A stretch of 14,968 nucleotides of DNA, from positions 1 to 14,968 of the forward strand of contig JAFSZQ010000082.1 in assembly GCA_017458885.1 (NCBI GenBank). Direction: 5' to 3'. This DNA comes from Oscillospiraceae bacterium. Its GTDB lineage: Bacteria; Bacillota; Clostridia; Oscillospirales; Oscillospiraceae. A program made the translations under genes and the position numbers. The notes under the pieces were generated by a model. It did no database searches. It was given only the letters and a program-made list of their open reading frames with translations, and was not told where the DNA came from. This document shows positions 853 through 10,273 of this stretch, in pieces (within the stretch, counting starts at the first letter, position 1; every line of letters starts with the position of its first letter).

Positions 853-891
853 AAAAAAGGAACGTCATGCGGTTGCATGGCGTTCCTTTTT
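852..891. terminator. Two-sided intrinsic terminator between converging genes
   Basis: The stem pairs 859-870 with 875-886 around a GGTT loop, with one T-G wobble. It is flanked by seven A on the left (852-858) and five T on the right (887-891), so it can work in both directions. The stop codon of the minus-strand TSUP gene (865-867) lies inside the stem, so the hairpin doubles as the 3' end of that gene. Confidence 0.88.
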
Positions 892-6967: not shown

Positions 6968-8407
6968 TCAAAAGTGATAGTAGATGAACGGGTTGTACGC
7001 GCTCTTGGCGCACACGGCGACGCACACCGCCAGCAGCGAGAGCATCGCCGCGGAGCGCGCGAGGTCGTAGCAGACGACCGCGCCGCGGCAGCGGCTCAGC
7101 CTGCCCGTCTCGAACAGGTCGCGCAGCCACGGCAGCACGGGCAGGCTGAACACCGCGCAGGCGAGCAGCACCCACTTGCCGTTTGCGACGTAGTACGGGA
7201 ACACGTTGTCCGTCCAGCCCGACGCGCCGACGCCGAATAGATTGGCGATGTAGCGCGCCGTGTGCGGGAGGCTCTCGGCACGGAAGATGACCATGCCCAC
7301 GGCGGTCAGCGCGAGCGCATAGACGTGGCGCAGCGGTCGCGCCGCGCCCGTGAGCTGGTTCGGGAAGCCGGTGAATTTTTCAAACACCAGCAGCACGAAG
7401 TAGTAGAGCCCCCAGAGCCAGAACGTCCAGTTCGCGCCGTGCCAGATGCCCGTCAGCAGCCACACGACGAACAGGTTCCACACCCAGCGCGGCTTCGACA
7501 CGCGGCTGCCGCCGAGCGGGATGTAGACGTAGTCGCGGAACCACTTGGACAGCGAAATGTGCTGCCGCCGCCAAAAGTCGGTGATGCTGTCGCAGGTGAA
7601 CGAGTAGTTGAAGTTCTCCTCAAAGTGGAAGCCGAACATCAGCCCCATGCCGATCGCCATGTCGCTGTAGCCGGAGAAGTCGAAGTACACCTGAAAGCTG
7701 TACGCCACCGCGCCGAGCCACGCCGTCGTGACCGCGAGCTCCGTGCCGACGAGGGCGAAGATGTTGTCCGCGATCAGCGCGACGTAGTTCGCGAGCAGCA
7801 CCTTTTTCGCCAGCCCGCACACCGTCCGCGTCACGCCGCGCGAGAAGTCGGGCAGGTTCTCGCGGCGGCGCTCGATCTCGTCCGCCACCGTGCCGTAGCG
7901 CACGATCGGCCCCGCGATGAGCTGCGGGAACATCGAGATATAGAGCGCGAGGCGGAAGATGCTCCGCTGCGCCTCCGCCTTGCGGTAGTAGACGTCGAAG
8001 ACGTAGGACATGATCTGGAAGGTGAAAAACGAGATGCCGACGGGCAGCTCGATGTGCAGACTGGGAAAATTCGCGCTCCCGAGCAGCAGCCCAATGTTCT
8101 CGAACGTAAAGGCGAGGTACTTGAACGTGAACATCAGCACGAGGTCGAACGCGATCGCCGCCGTGAGCCACGCCTTGCGCGCCCGCTTCTCCTCATGCGC
8201 CGCGATGCGCAGCCCGCAGACGTAGTTCCACAGGATCGAGAACAGCATCAGCCCCACGAACACCGGCTCGCCCCAGGCGTAGAACACGAGGCTGACCGCG
8301 AGCAGCACCGCGTTGCGGTATCCGCGGGAGCGGCAGAGCGGGTTATAATACAGCAGCAGGGACAGCGGCAGGAACAGAAATAAGAACACCGTTGACGCAA
8401 AAACCAT
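6968..8407 (-). CDS. MBOAT family O-acyltransferase (AlgI/DltB/PatA-like)
   Basis: A 479-residue multi-pass membrane protein, the length usual for AlgI-type MBOAT enzymes, which bring acyl groups across the membrane for polymer O-acylation. Visible marks are VFYAWGEPVF (41-50), KYLAFTFENI (96-105), LPVGISFFTFQIMSYVFDVY (121-140), FPQLIAGPIVRY (160-171), YFDFSGYSDMAIGMGLMFG (241-259), FWRRQHISLSKWFRDYVYIP (278-297) and LTGIWHGANWTF (318-329). H323 in IWHG is the invariant MBOAT histidine. The start at 8407 has GGAGG about 7 bases upstream; an upstream in-frame ATG at 8455 lies before the promoter's transcription start and is rejected. It pairs with the DHHW gene downstream. Confidence 0.96.
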   Translation of the reverse strand: MVFASTVFLFLFLPLSLLLYYNPLCRSRGYRNAVLLAVSLVFYAWGEPVFVGLMLFSILWNYVCGLRIAAHEEKRARKAWLTAAIAFDLVLMFTFKYLAFTFENIGLLLGSANFPSLHIELPVGISFFTFQIMSYVFDVYYRKAEAQRSIFRLALYISMFPQLIAGPIVRYGTVADEIERRRENLPDFSRGVTRTVCGLAKKVLLANYVALIADNIFALVGTELAVTTAWLGAVAYSFQVYFDFSGYSDMAIGMGLMFGFHFEENFNYSFTCDSITDFWRRQHISLSKWFRDYVYIPLGGSRVSKPRWVWNLFVVWLLTGIWHGANWTFWLWGLYYFVLLVFEKFTGFPNQLTGAARPLRHVYALALTAVGMVIFRAESLPHTARYIANLFGVGASGWTDNVFPYYVANGKWVLLACAVFSLPVLPWLRDLFETGRLSRCRGAVVCYDLARSAAMLSLLAVCVAVCAKSAYNPFIYYHF

Positions 8408-8445
8408 CGCGCGCCTCCGAAAACGTGGAATGTCGATTTGGGAAC

Positions 8446-8474
8446 AGTATAGCACAGCTTTTGCGCGGTTTCAA
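8446..8474 (-). promoter_or_regulatory. Promoter of the MBOAT/DHHW operon
   Basis: On the minus strand a -35 TTGAAA (8469-8474) is followed by a 17-base spacer and a -10 TATACT (8446-8451) with the extended TG one base before it. Transcription should start near 8439, leaving a leader of about 32 bases with the GGAGG site. Confidence 0.82.
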
Positions 8475-8484
8475 CGCAAAAAGC
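8457..8484. repeat. Inverted repeat between the divergent promoters
   Basis: Arms GCTTTTGCG (8457-8465) and CGCAAAAAGC (8475-8484), matching except for one extra A, flank the -35 box of the minus-strand MBOAT promoter and end just before the -35 box of a plus-strand promoter (8487). The position is that of an operator able to control both, but no regulator is known. Confidence 0.45.
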
Positions 8485-8486
8485 GC

Positions 8487-8514
8487 TTGACAAAGCAAGC
8501 GGGGAGGGTATAAT
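8487..8514 (+). promoter_or_regulatory. Perfect-consensus sigma-A promoter pointing into the intergenic island
   Basis: TTGACA (8487-8492), a 16-base spacer and TATAAT (8509-8514), both boxes matching consensus exactly. Start expected near 8521. No gene begins soon after; the first element downstream is a terminator at 8579-8608, so it should make a short RNA of roughly 90 bases, or a long mgtE leader if read-through occurs. Confidence 0.8.
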
Positions 8515-8520
8515 AAAAGA

Positions 8521-8612
8521 CAGAGGGGCAGACCGCGACAACGGCAAGGCCCTACAGGTAAGTTAGATTTTCAGAAAGAAAACCGTCACCGTGCAGGGTG
8601 GCGGTTTTCCCT
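8521..8612 (+). ncRNA. Candidate small RNA or attenuated leader, about 90 bases
   Basis: This stretch lies between a perfect-consensus promoter and an intrinsic terminator and holds no sensible reading frame. Its 5' part can fold: AGGG (8524-8527) pairs with CCCT (8550-8553) and encloses a CCG/CGG hairpin (8533-8544) with a six-base loop; an A/U-rich linker follows, then the terminator. I do not recognise it as any known riboswitch or sRNA (no M-box, SRP, 6S or tmRNA core). It could be a stand-alone small RNA, or a regulatory leader whose terminator controls read-through to mgtE 280 bases further on. The 5' end is estimated from the promoter. Confidence 0.45.
8579..8608. terminator. Two-sided intrinsic terminator in the intergenic island
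   Basis: Arms 8579-8590 and 8597-8608 (AAAACCGTCACC with GGTGGCGGTTTT, one T-G wobble) enclose a six-base loop. The right side reads TTTTCCCTTTT on the plus strand and the left side reads TTTTCTTTC on the minus strand, so it can stop transcription from both sides. It lies between two opposing promoter signals and far from any protein gene end. Confidence 0.78.
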
Positions 8613-8674
8613 TTTGAGTCTCAACGAAAGAACATATCCTTTGATATGTAACGTGAGATACAAAAAGTACATAG

Positions 8675-8750
8675 CTCCACCCCCTTTCGGAGGTCGTGAG
8701 CCTCGCCGCCGCCGTGTTCAGTTTGCCCCTCTGCCCCCTTGCGGGTGGTC
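8675..8750. repeat. Imperfect direct repeat pair (8675-8695 and 8729-8750)
   Basis: Two copies of a CTC-N2-CCCCCTT-N-CGG...GGTC unit start 54 bases apart. Thirteen of the first sixteen bases match, followed by GGTC after a one-base shift. On the minus strand each copy forms the tip of one GNRA hairpin, so the repeat probably reflects a duplicated RNA hairpin rather than a mobile element. Both explanations remain open. Confidence 0.55.
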
Positions 8751-8769
8751 TCGGAAAGAGGTTGCGCTT

Positions 8770-8798
8770 ATTCTACAACGTCCGCGCGGGGAAGTCAA
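8770..8798 (-). promoter_or_regulatory. Minus-strand promoter inside the intergenic island
   Basis: On the minus strand TTGACT (8793-8798), a 17-base spacer and TAGAAT (8770-8775) each match the sigma-A consensus at five of six positions. It points away from mgtE, toward the hairpin-rich stretch and the terminator at 8579-8608. No protein gene lies between it and that terminator. Confidence 0.6.
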
Positions 8799-8829
8799 CG
8801 CCAAGACGTGCGAAAGCGCCCACAAATGC

Positions 8830-8858
8830 TTGACACGGCGCGCAAAAACGCATAAACT
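8830..8858 (+). promoter_or_regulatory. Promoter of mgtE
   Basis: TTGACA (8830-8835), a 17-base spacer and TAAACT (8853-8858; four of six matches) precede the MgtE start by about 32 bases. The resulting leader is only about 25 bases, too short for a Mg2+ riboswitch such as the M-box. Confidence 0.72.
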
Positions 8859-8890
8859 ATAAGCCCAAAACGCGGAAAGGAGGAGCCGGT

Positions 8891-10273
8891 ATGGTGGATT
8901 TTGAGGAGCATCGCGAGGAATTGCTCGCGTGCATCCGCGACCTGCTCGCGCGCAAGCAGTACGCCGCCCTGCGCGACCAGCTCGCGCAGCTCGAACCCGC
9001 GGACATCGCCGCGCTGTTCGAGGATCTCGACGAGCGGCAGCTCCCGCTGCTGTTCCGGCTGCTTCCCAAGGAGCCGGCGGCGGAGGTGTTTGTCGAGCTC
9101 GACCCCGAGGCGCAGGAGCTGCTGATTCGCGGCTTTTCCAACACGGAGCTCAAGGAAGTCCTCGACGAGCTGTACGTCGACGACGCCGCCGACCTCGTCG
9201 AGGAGATGCCCGCCAACGTCGTCAAGCGCATTTTGCGCCACGCCGACGACGAGACGAGAGAGAGCATCAACCAGATACTCAGGTACCCCGAGGACTCCGC
9301 CGGCTCGCTGATGACGACGGAGGTCATCGACCTCAAGCGCACGATGACCGTCGCGGACGCGTTCAAGCGCATCCGCCGCACGGCGGCGGACATGGAGATC
9401 ATCTCCGTCGGCTACGTCACCGACGAGGGCCGCCACCTGCTCGGCGTCGTCACCATCCGAGACCTGCTGCTCGCCGAGGAGGACGACGTCGTCGGCGAGC
9501 TCATGGACCCCAACGTCATCTCCGTGGGCACGCTCGACGACAAGGAGGAGGTCGCGCAGGCGTTCAGCCGCTACGACTTCTTCGTGCTTCCCGTCGTGGA
9601 TGCCGAGGGGCGGCTCGTCGGCATCGTCACGTTCGACGACGCCATCGACGTCATGGAAGAGGAGGCGACGGAGGATATCGAGAAGATGGCGGCGATGCTG
9701 CCCTCCGACAAGCCCTACCTCAAGACCGGCGTGTGGGAGACGTGGAAGGCGCGCATCCCATGGCTGCTGCTGCTGATGGTATCGGCGACGTTCACGGGCC
9801 AGATCATCGCGGGCTTTGAGAGCGCGCTTGCCGCCGTCACGATCCTGACGGCGTATATCCCGATGCTGATGGACACCGGCGGCAACTGCGGCGGGCAGGC
9901 GAGCGTCACGGTCATCCGCGGCATCTCGCTCGACGAGATTGAGTTTGCCGACCTGCCGAAGGTCATCTGGAAGGAGATCCGCGTCGGTGTGATCTGCGGC
10001 GCGACGCTCGCCGCGGCGAACTTCGTCAAGATCATGCTCGTCGACCGGCTCATGTTCCACAATCCGATCACGATCACCGTCGCGGCGGTCATCTGCCTGA
10101 CGATGCTGCTGACCGTCGTGTGCGCGAAGATCATCGGCTGCGTGCTGCCGCTGCTGGCGAAGAAGCTCGGCTTCGACCCCGCGGTCATGTCCTCGCCGTT
10201 CATCACGACGCTGGTGGACGCGGTCTCGCTGCTCATCTACTTCAACTTCGCGCGAACGCTGCTGCATATCTAG
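8891..10273 (+). CDS. mgtE: MgtE magnesium channel/transporter
   Basis: A 460-residue Mg2+ transporter of the MgtE (SLC41-like) family. Order of domains: MgtE_N superhelical domain (about 1-130, with repeated acidic helices), a CBS pair (about 139-258) beginning after EDSAGSLMTTE (134-144) and containing IISVGYVTDEGRHLLGVV and FFVLPVVDAEGRLVGIVTF, a plug helix region, then a C-terminal membrane domain of about five helices from residue 290. The pore signature PMLMDTGGNCGGQAS is at 324-338 and the pore aspartate (Asp432 in the Thermus protein) corresponds to D443 in TTLVDAVSL. Cytosolic domains close the pore when Mg2+ is high. The start has an AAGGAGGAG site and its own promoter. Its stop codon is part of the ribosome site of the next gene. 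Confidence 0.97.
   Translation: MVDFEEHREELLACIRDLLARKQYAALRDQLAQLEPADIAALFEDLDERQLPLLFRLLPKEPAAEVFVELDPEAQELLIRGFSNTELKEVLDELYVDDAADLVEEMPANVVKRILRHADDETRESINQILRYPEDSAGSLMTTEVIDLKRTMTVADAFKRIRRTAADMEIISVGYVTDEGRHLLGVVTIRDLLLAEEDDVVGELMDPNVISVGTLDDKEEVAQAFSRYDFFVLPVVDAEGRLVGIVTFDDAIDVMEEEATEDIEKMAAMLPSDKPYLKTGVWETWKARIPWLLLLMVSATFTGQIIAGFESALAAVTILTAYIPMLMDTGGNCGGQASVTVIRGISLDEIEFADLPKVIWKEIRVGVICGATLAAANFVKIMLVDRLMFHNPITITVAAVICLTMLLTVVCAKIIGCVLPLLAKKLGFDPAVMSSPFITTLVDAVSLLIYFNFARTLLHI

Follow-up and report, generated by a model that had tools for sequence, protein, structure and literature searches.

The island of 483 bases beside mgtE (8408-8890) is best explained as an inserted element of approximately 340 bases whose mode of operation resembles that of a type I toxin-antitoxin locus, a reading to which a probability of roughly 0.7 is assigned; the window referred to below is the whole stretch of DNA that was analysed (14,968 bases). 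According to this proposal, a promoter on the minus strand (8798-8770) would drive the synthesis of a ~190-nt mRNA that encodes a cationic peptide of 28 amino acids and whose Shine-Dalgarno sequence would be locked within a GNRA-capped hairpin, and a stronger promoter on the plus strand (8487-8514) would produce a ~94-nt RNA that runs towards the peptide mRNA and ends at a common terminator. This antisense RNA would be fully complementary to approximately 40 nt at the 3' end of the mRNA, and pairing, which may start at the two complementary loops of the terminator, would lead to repression of the mRNA or to its decay by RNase III; if the antisense RNA were lost, the peptide would be made and the cell would be harmed or arrested. 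The ORF, the promoter and terminator matches, the predicted hairpin, the complementarity, the conservation, the coding selection, the repeats and the empty sites are all visible in the DNA itself, and from them we infer transcription, toxicity, repression and the mode of pairing. The features of the island and its flanks are the following:

6971-8407, minus strand: MBOAT-family gene (Pfam MBOAT, E 3.3e-28)
8474-8446, minus strand: promoter of the MBOAT-family gene, TTGAAA-17-TATACT, 10/12; a neighbour, outside the element
8485-8492, plus strand: GCTTGACA, left copy of a short duplication, which includes the -35 box of the antisense RNA promoter
8487-8514, plus strand: promoter of the antisense RNA (putative antitoxin), TTGACA-16-TATAAT, 12/12
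8521-8614, plus strand: putative antisense RNA, ~94 nt, both ends deduced from promoter and terminator
8521-8533, plus strand: 5' motif CAGAGGGGCAGAC, common to both RNAs, left arm of an inverted repeat, 12/13 (92%) complementary to 8721-8733
8575-8763, minus strand: putative peptide mRNA, ~190 nt, with deduced ends
8578-8609, both strands: two-sided intrinsic terminator common to both RNAs, 13 pairs, 7 of them G-C
8586-8672, minus strand: 28-codon ORF for the putative toxin peptide MYFLYLTLHIKGYVLSLRLKRENRHPAR, with homologues and purifying selection in the family
8679-8694, minus strand: leader hairpin ACCTCC-GAAA-GGGGGT, containing the Shine-Dalgarno sequence, from the predicted fold of the mRNA
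8721-8733, minus strand: right arm of the inverted repeat, within the mRNA leader, recognised by its complementarity to 8521-8533
8798-8770, minus strand: promoter of the peptide mRNA, TTGACT-17-TAGAAT, 10/12
8828-8835, plus strand: GCTTGACA, right copy of the duplication, which includes the -35 box of mgtE
8830-8858, plus strand: mgtE promoter, TTGACA-17-TAAACT, 10/12; a neighbour, outside the element
8891-10273, plus strand: mgtE (Pfam MgtE, E 4.5e-37)

An earlier, sequence-only reading of this DNA had placed four promoters in the island (8446-8474, 8487-8514, 8770-8798 and 8830-8858), and all of them are present where it put them, with 10-12 of 12 consensus positions, as is the two-sided terminator that it gave as 8579-8608. 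Matches to the sigma-70 promoter number six in the whole window, four of them in the island, compared with 1.1 per window in shuffles; the probability of finding at least four of the six within 483 bases is approximately 1.5e-5 by the binomial distribution, for an interval that was picked after the sites had been seen. The attribution of the outer two promoters to the flanking genes agrees with Pfam, which identifies the minus-strand gene as MBOAT and the plus-strand gene as mgtE. The same reading saw no credible protein gene in the island and none for the inner promoters to serve, and in this respect it has to be corrected: the inner minus promoter precedes the 28-codon ORF, which has many conserved homologues and a G-rich Shine-Dalgarno sequence directly 5' of its ATG, and whose last codons and stop codon are contained in the terminator stem-loop. 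Its picture of two convergent small RNA genes with a common terminator survives in part, given that the layout is predicted by the sequence and kept across the family and that the plus transcript would be non-coding, but the minus transcript would be the mRNA of a conserved peptide. An Rfam scan, which had been proposed as a check, returned no match for the window at the gathering score (two matches below it are at chance level), and in eight fetched loci nothing except two tRNAs reached that score; a known RNA family was for this reason rejected as the identity of the island. The search of the window for tRNA and tmRNA found none. A second strong terminator-like stem in the window (854-891, 17 pairs), located after the first ORF, resembles an ordinary terminator.

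In the assembly to which the window belongs (0.92 Mb, 64% complete), five places match the peptide at E up to 10, and a 14-row profile finds eight places in the same genome, some of them degenerate and the last one partial. This profile gives a best E of 1e-5 or less in 11 of the 18 genus genomes and in 12 of the 295 order genomes (own genome included), figures that rise to 13/18 and 25/295 at a looser E of 0.05, where the matches include broken copies. A 51-row profile, again at E 1e-5, yields 1/391 in the class-wide sample, which is the own genome, and 5/398 in the phylum-wide sample, namely the own genome and four genomes outside the class; judging from the counts in genus and order versus class and phylum, the family is frequent in certain lineages and thinly spread as a whole. 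In three loci from the outside-class genomes (L224-L226) the peptide is accompanied by a ribosome site and its end overlaps with a stem; L225 and L226 also show, on inspection by eye, a facing promoter-like site. At the level of DNA, a pattern based on the terminator matches at least 117 stretches in a collection of species genomes; among the matches listed are Oscillospiraceae, Ruminococcaceae, Lachnospiraceae and other Clostridia and, by name, Gemmiger formicilis, Pseudoflavonifractor capillosus and Evtepia gabavorous. The set used for most comparisons consists of 149 distinct elements obtained from 173 profile hits in 185 loci, duplicates and hits without a start codon being left out. In Vescimonas fastidiosa, no listed gene lies under the best place of each search, in a gene table that is incomplete.

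Phages and plasmids were rejected as the main home of the element, which was found in four viral contigs by a narrower DNA pattern, in one phage record for one peptide (none for a second) and in one large Vescimonas replicon. Copies on phage-like or viral contigs are those of L014 (MT835905.1) and L065-L068, and these few cases suggest that phages may occasionally carry the element. Literature word searches, limited in reach, brought up no description that was recognised as this peptide family, and the available portions of PMC5521070 and PMC11264685 do not mention it; a catalogue of oppositely overlapping structured RNAs (PMC8040213, in the portion available) could include the element.

Family ORFs mostly encode 25-30 residues and begin with ATG in 126 of the 149 elements, and almost all elements among the matches listed have a G-rich ribosome site ahead of the start. 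In the 25-residue group, pN/pS amounts to 0.21 when all pairs are counted and to 0.13 in close pairs; the values for the 27-residue group are 0.53 and 0.24, respectively, whereas those for the two remaining frames of that strand, with all pairs counted, are 0.99-1.97; by this measure, the peptide family is under purifying selection. Taken over 51 members, the majority consensus reads MPITLTFHIxxxTVTIxVKSxNRHSAK. In some copies (L045, L098 and L141) the ORF ends ahead of the terminator, which suggests that the NRHSAK tail is in part a side effect of the sequence needed for the terminator.

As for the physical character of the peptides, their mean net charge is +4.8, and the hydrophobic moment is 2.67 at the beta angle (shuffled 1.91, sd 0.59) and 1.39 at the alpha angle (shuffled 1.80, sd 0.39); a helix-like mean hydropathy over 17 residues of at least 1.6 is reached by 4% of 111 family peptides. 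The relative L079, a member of 31 residues (the window peptide has 28 aa), was modelled with AlphaFold2 (51 rows) as a beta-hairpin, with strands at residues 3-9 and 12-18, a mean pLDDT of 90 over residues 1-20 and of 62-65 over the rest, and a pTM of 0.34. A Foldseek search with this model gave 199 matches at E up to 10 and none at or below 0.001, a result that is uninformative at 31 residues. Peptide P0001 has no match in Pfam, NCBIfam or PHROGs. When 51 members were compared with the family libraries, YrzI was matched by four in Pfam (best E 0.027) and by five in NCBIfam (best E 0.01), and PHROG 4193 by six (best E 0.0027); PADLOC gave no match, the few further matches involved one or two members each, and a sequence search of the PDB with family peptides found no match. 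None of the Pfam and NCBIfam matches of the peptides exceeded a cut-off.

Another check that had been proposed, covariation, was run on the family elements with a divided outcome: it is found in outer pairs 1-3 of the terminator, and RNAalifold returned no consensus structure on either leader alignment, which is why covariation was tested on anchored pairs. At the terminator, the pairs considered were those just outside the core, which are not fixed by the search pattern, in 132 distinct arms from 139 elements. The first outer pair is formed in 132/132 (A-T 84, C-G 39, G-C 7, T-A 2) against 0.53 in shuffled arms, the second in 0.93 against 0.68 and the third in 0.75 against 0.61, and pairs 4-6 outward are at chance level. 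Two loci, L040 and L048, have variant terminators with the stem core altered on both sides and TAA as the stop, as in a natural compensatory series.

A hairpin with a four-nucleotide loop and at least three pairs is located at the ribosome site in 114 of 148 leaders, with a GNRA loop in 89 of these, and the combination of at least four pairs with a GNRA loop occurs in 41.9% of leaders versus 0.7% of shuffles. With 77 distinct leaders anchored solely at the loop (8 pairs tested, 500 shuffles), pair 3 of this hairpin covaries (0.91 versus 0.74, 0/500 shuffles), pair 1 does so weakly (6/500 shuffles) and the remaining tested pairs not convincingly. In the predicted fold of the window mRNA, the unpaired probability of the G-run at the ribosome site is 0.00. 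A GGGC...GCCC hairpin drawn in the 5' part of the antisense RNA from the motif common to both RNAs, attractive by eye, received no significant support (0.52 versus 0.46 shuffled, with a negative column test).

Promoter statistics refer to the 130 of 149 elements that have full flanks and the canonical end. The promoter on the antisense side matches at least 11/12 positions in 117/130 (the controls at this threshold being approximately 0% for shuffles and 5% for the wrong strand) and 12/12 in 85/130, and the distance from its -10 box to the stop codon is mostly 60-85 nt. The promoter on the peptide side reaches at least 10/12 in 77/130 and 12/12 in 10/130, with a wrong-strand control that is not clean (11% at 11/12 or more). 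Because perfect matches are so much more frequent on the antisense side, the antisense promoter is usually the stronger of the two; both promoters occur together (peptide at least 10, antisense at least 11 of 12) in 71/130. Beyond the peptide end of the element a further promoter is often present: a second TTGACA in the same direction is found in 31/107 (4.7% shuffled), which may simply reflect insertion upstream of genes.

With the ends chosen for them, the two RNAs of the window overlap by 45 nt, all of which pair (-90.2 kcal/mol). Cross-pairing was computed for copies of the own genome and of one relative by combining seven antisense RNAs with nine mRNAs (eight rows, as two versions of the window's antisense RNA were used), and the cognate pair is the most stable in every row (-83 to -92 versus -47 to -82 kcal/mol); this stability is due to the perfect overlap and is hence no proof of function, and the predicted energies leave room for specificity between copies. 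The motif at 8521-8533 and 8721-8733 has the same sense in both RNAs, which makes it an inverted repeat on the DNA, and for that reason it gives no second antisense contact. A comparable common 5' motif can be recognised by eye in many family members among those listed.

The elements are mostly intergenic, since their midpoint falls inside a stop-to-stop frame of at least 150 codons in 16.4% of 140 cases versus 85.5% for random positions in the same loci. The MBOAT-mgtE site is empty in a sister species, G004, whose mgtE and MBOAT are 92% and 94% identical: there MBOAT adjoins mgtE, the gap holds no element, and GCTTGACA is present as a single copy (L187), compared with two in the window, one of which forms the -35 box of the antisense promoter and the other that of mgtE. 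Another relative, G011, keeps both neighbours, MBOAT and mgtE, with a longer gap and the element absent. The gene mgtE is present in 18/18 genus genomes, and, among the contigs compared, the window's genome is the only one that has the element and mgtE on one contig. A conserved regulator of mgtE was rejected on these grounds, the element being missing at the mgtE loci of relatives and the MBOAT-mgtE gap of G004 being empty; by this comparison of genomes, the link of the element to mgtE is accidental. Two other elements of the own genome are located upstream of genes that we take to be coaBC-like and pckA-like, and at these sites in genus relatives the element was not seen, in the stretches read by eye, in 5/5 and 12/12 cases, respectively. 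A loose search for the terminator core was positive in 3/3 own loci and in none of the relatives' loci (0/18 mgtE, 0/12 pckA, 0/5 coaBC).

A universal target-site duplication was sought and not found. Direct repeats of at least 14 nt in the flanks accompany 17 of 132 elements (none in shuffles), of which several belong to tandem arrays. A tandem array in a Lachnospiraceae MAG, UBA3287 (L072, 396-2206), consists of five tandem pattern matches approximately 450 bases apart, four copies having a peptide (two of the four are alike) and the first being without an intact one. At another locus (L002, G000:C153), presumably near a recR-like gene, a long direct repeat stands on both sides of the element; its exact part measures 35 nt and its whole length, judged by eye, approximately 75 nt, which gives the impression of an insertion or duplication that took flanking DNA along.

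The way in which copies decay was also compared between the two halves of the element, in the 127 pattern matches of the 117 genome-collection stretches retrieved, 10 of these matches being too near an edge, so that 117 were scored, with a promoter counted as present at 10/12 or more. Peptide and promoter are both present in 86, the promoter alone in 21, the peptide alone in 6 and neither in 4. On re-reading the 21 promoter-only cases, L098 and L141 proved to encode an intact peptide that stops earlier, and L149 and L155 an intact core with a shifted tail; among the six peptide-only cases, two have a promoter of 9/12, just below the cut-off, and one has an aberrant peptide. The peptide half is lost (start missing or frame cut short) in 17 versus 6 losses of the antisense promoter (p 0.035). 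Loss of the peptide first is what is predicted for a toxin with a needed antitoxin, and it could also result from the larger mutational target that an ORF offers in comparison with a promoter. The elements are not independent, and the asymmetry is supporting, not strong, evidence for the toxin-antitoxin reading. In L025, L027, L032 and L034 the peptide start or leader is deleted or replaced and the facing promoter-like site is kept, and these loci are candidate orphan antitoxin RNAs.

The evidence has to be weighed against three other explanations. That the island holds two convergent non-coding RNAs, the ORF being incidental, is very improbable: the promoters and the common terminator are indeed present, but coding selection is strong in the frame of the ORF and absent in the other two, and the frequent ATG start and the G-rich ribosome site speak against it as well. 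A more serious competitor, although still an unlikely one, accepts the gating of the peptide by the antisense RNA and takes the peptide to be no toxin, with a regulatory, signalling or antimicrobial role. The cationic, amphipathic beta pattern without a membrane helix, together with the hairpin modelled for a relative, would suit such a peptide, and the toxicity of the family is putative; the dispersed and tandem copies, the sporadic presence, the empty sites and the loss of the peptide first are better suited to an addiction-type locus, which is for these reasons preferred over a housekeeping regulator.

It is also conceivable, with a low probability that lies between those of the two preceding explanations, that the island is a miniature insertion element of the selfish kind, in which all that is conserved serves its own spread and the peptide is a mobility factor. 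Dispersed copies, empty sites, the short duplication at the mgtE site and the direct repeats in the flanks are what such an element would leave behind, but no shared termini are defined, and a purely selfish element would need no consensus antisense promoter. This explanation and the toxin-antitoxin reading are compatible and can both hold.

The toxin-antitoxin reading can be extended, tentatively and with somewhat less than an even chance of being right in all its parts, to an unnamed repeated type I class of gut Clostridia, with a membrane-active amphipathic beta-hairpin toxin, its C-terminus and stop written into the common terminator, that would spread between promoters without a transposase of its own and whose antitoxin at the mgtE site has a -35 box apparently copied from that of the host gene. 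If this is true, many gut Clostridia carry a repeated toxin-antitoxin-like element, often in several copies per genome, of which the best matches are unlisted as genes in the one annotated relative that was checked, Vescimonas fastidiosa. A beta-hairpin peptide would then join a class of toxins mostly described as alpha-helical membrane peptides, in which the legend of Table 1 of one review marks beta-sheet for some (PMC8309996, in the portion available). The end of the peptide, the stop codon, the two-way terminator and the antisense pairing site are all contained within approximately 30 bases, and the element supplies a ready DNA signature for locating and testing such loci.

With regard to the known type I systems, the element has a peptide gene (ORF 8586-8672) and, on the opposite strand, a predicted antisense gene with a promoter kept in the family, whose RNA is expected to pair with the toxin mRNA over 45/45 nt; a hydrophobic, membrane-spanning toxin, which is usual and not universal in these systems, is not what the hydropathy of the 111 family peptides indicates. 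YrzI (PF09501 / TIGR02413) weakly resembles the beta stretch of the family peptide, one member scoring 12.3 bits against the NCBIfam cut-off of 47.05, which places it outside that family. In the TxpA/RatA and BsrG/SR4 systems of Bacillus subtilis, as in the element, toxin mRNA and antisense RNA overlap at their 3' ends, and their toxins are longer and hydrophobic, unlike the peptide of the element, so that by description they are set apart. The txpA-RatA locus sits in the skin element (PMC6563280). The Clostridioides difficile pairs CD2517.1-RCd8, CD2907.1-RCd9 and CD0956.2-RCd10 are alike in having convergent, overlapping toxin and antisense genes in Clostridia, with toxin genes that were formerly unannotated, and are set apart by the description of their toxins, which have 50-53 aa and are located in the membrane, and of their loci, two of three of which are in prophages (PMC6563280, in the portion available).

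The sequence-only reading knew of no named system with this arrangement, and here the Fst/par loci (RNA I / RNA II of Enterococcus pAD1 and relatives) supply one, with convergent promoters and a common bidirectional intrinsic terminator, and with a short peptide, a Shine-Dalgarno sequence in a leader stem-loop and a charged C-terminal tail that are also reminiscent of the element (PMC7472228, in the portion available). The Fst/par peptide is a transmembrane helix with a PXXXG motif, and the direct repeats DRa and DRb form a second complementary region in Fst/par (PMC7472228), whereas the peptide of the element is unrelated and, in a relative, modelled as a beta-hairpin, and the repeats of the element are inverted and have the same sense in both RNAs. 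The family consensus has no PXXXG motif and, as noted, P0001 has no Pfam or NCBIfam match; because both the peptide and the repeats differ in this way, the element is placed outside the Fst family. Unlike Fst/par, it has its stop codon and last residues within the terminator stem and is found mainly in genome contigs of gut Clostridia. Its layout, as far as the DNA can be read, works like a type I toxin-antitoxin locus with putative transcription and toxicity, and Fst/par is the closest of the known systems.
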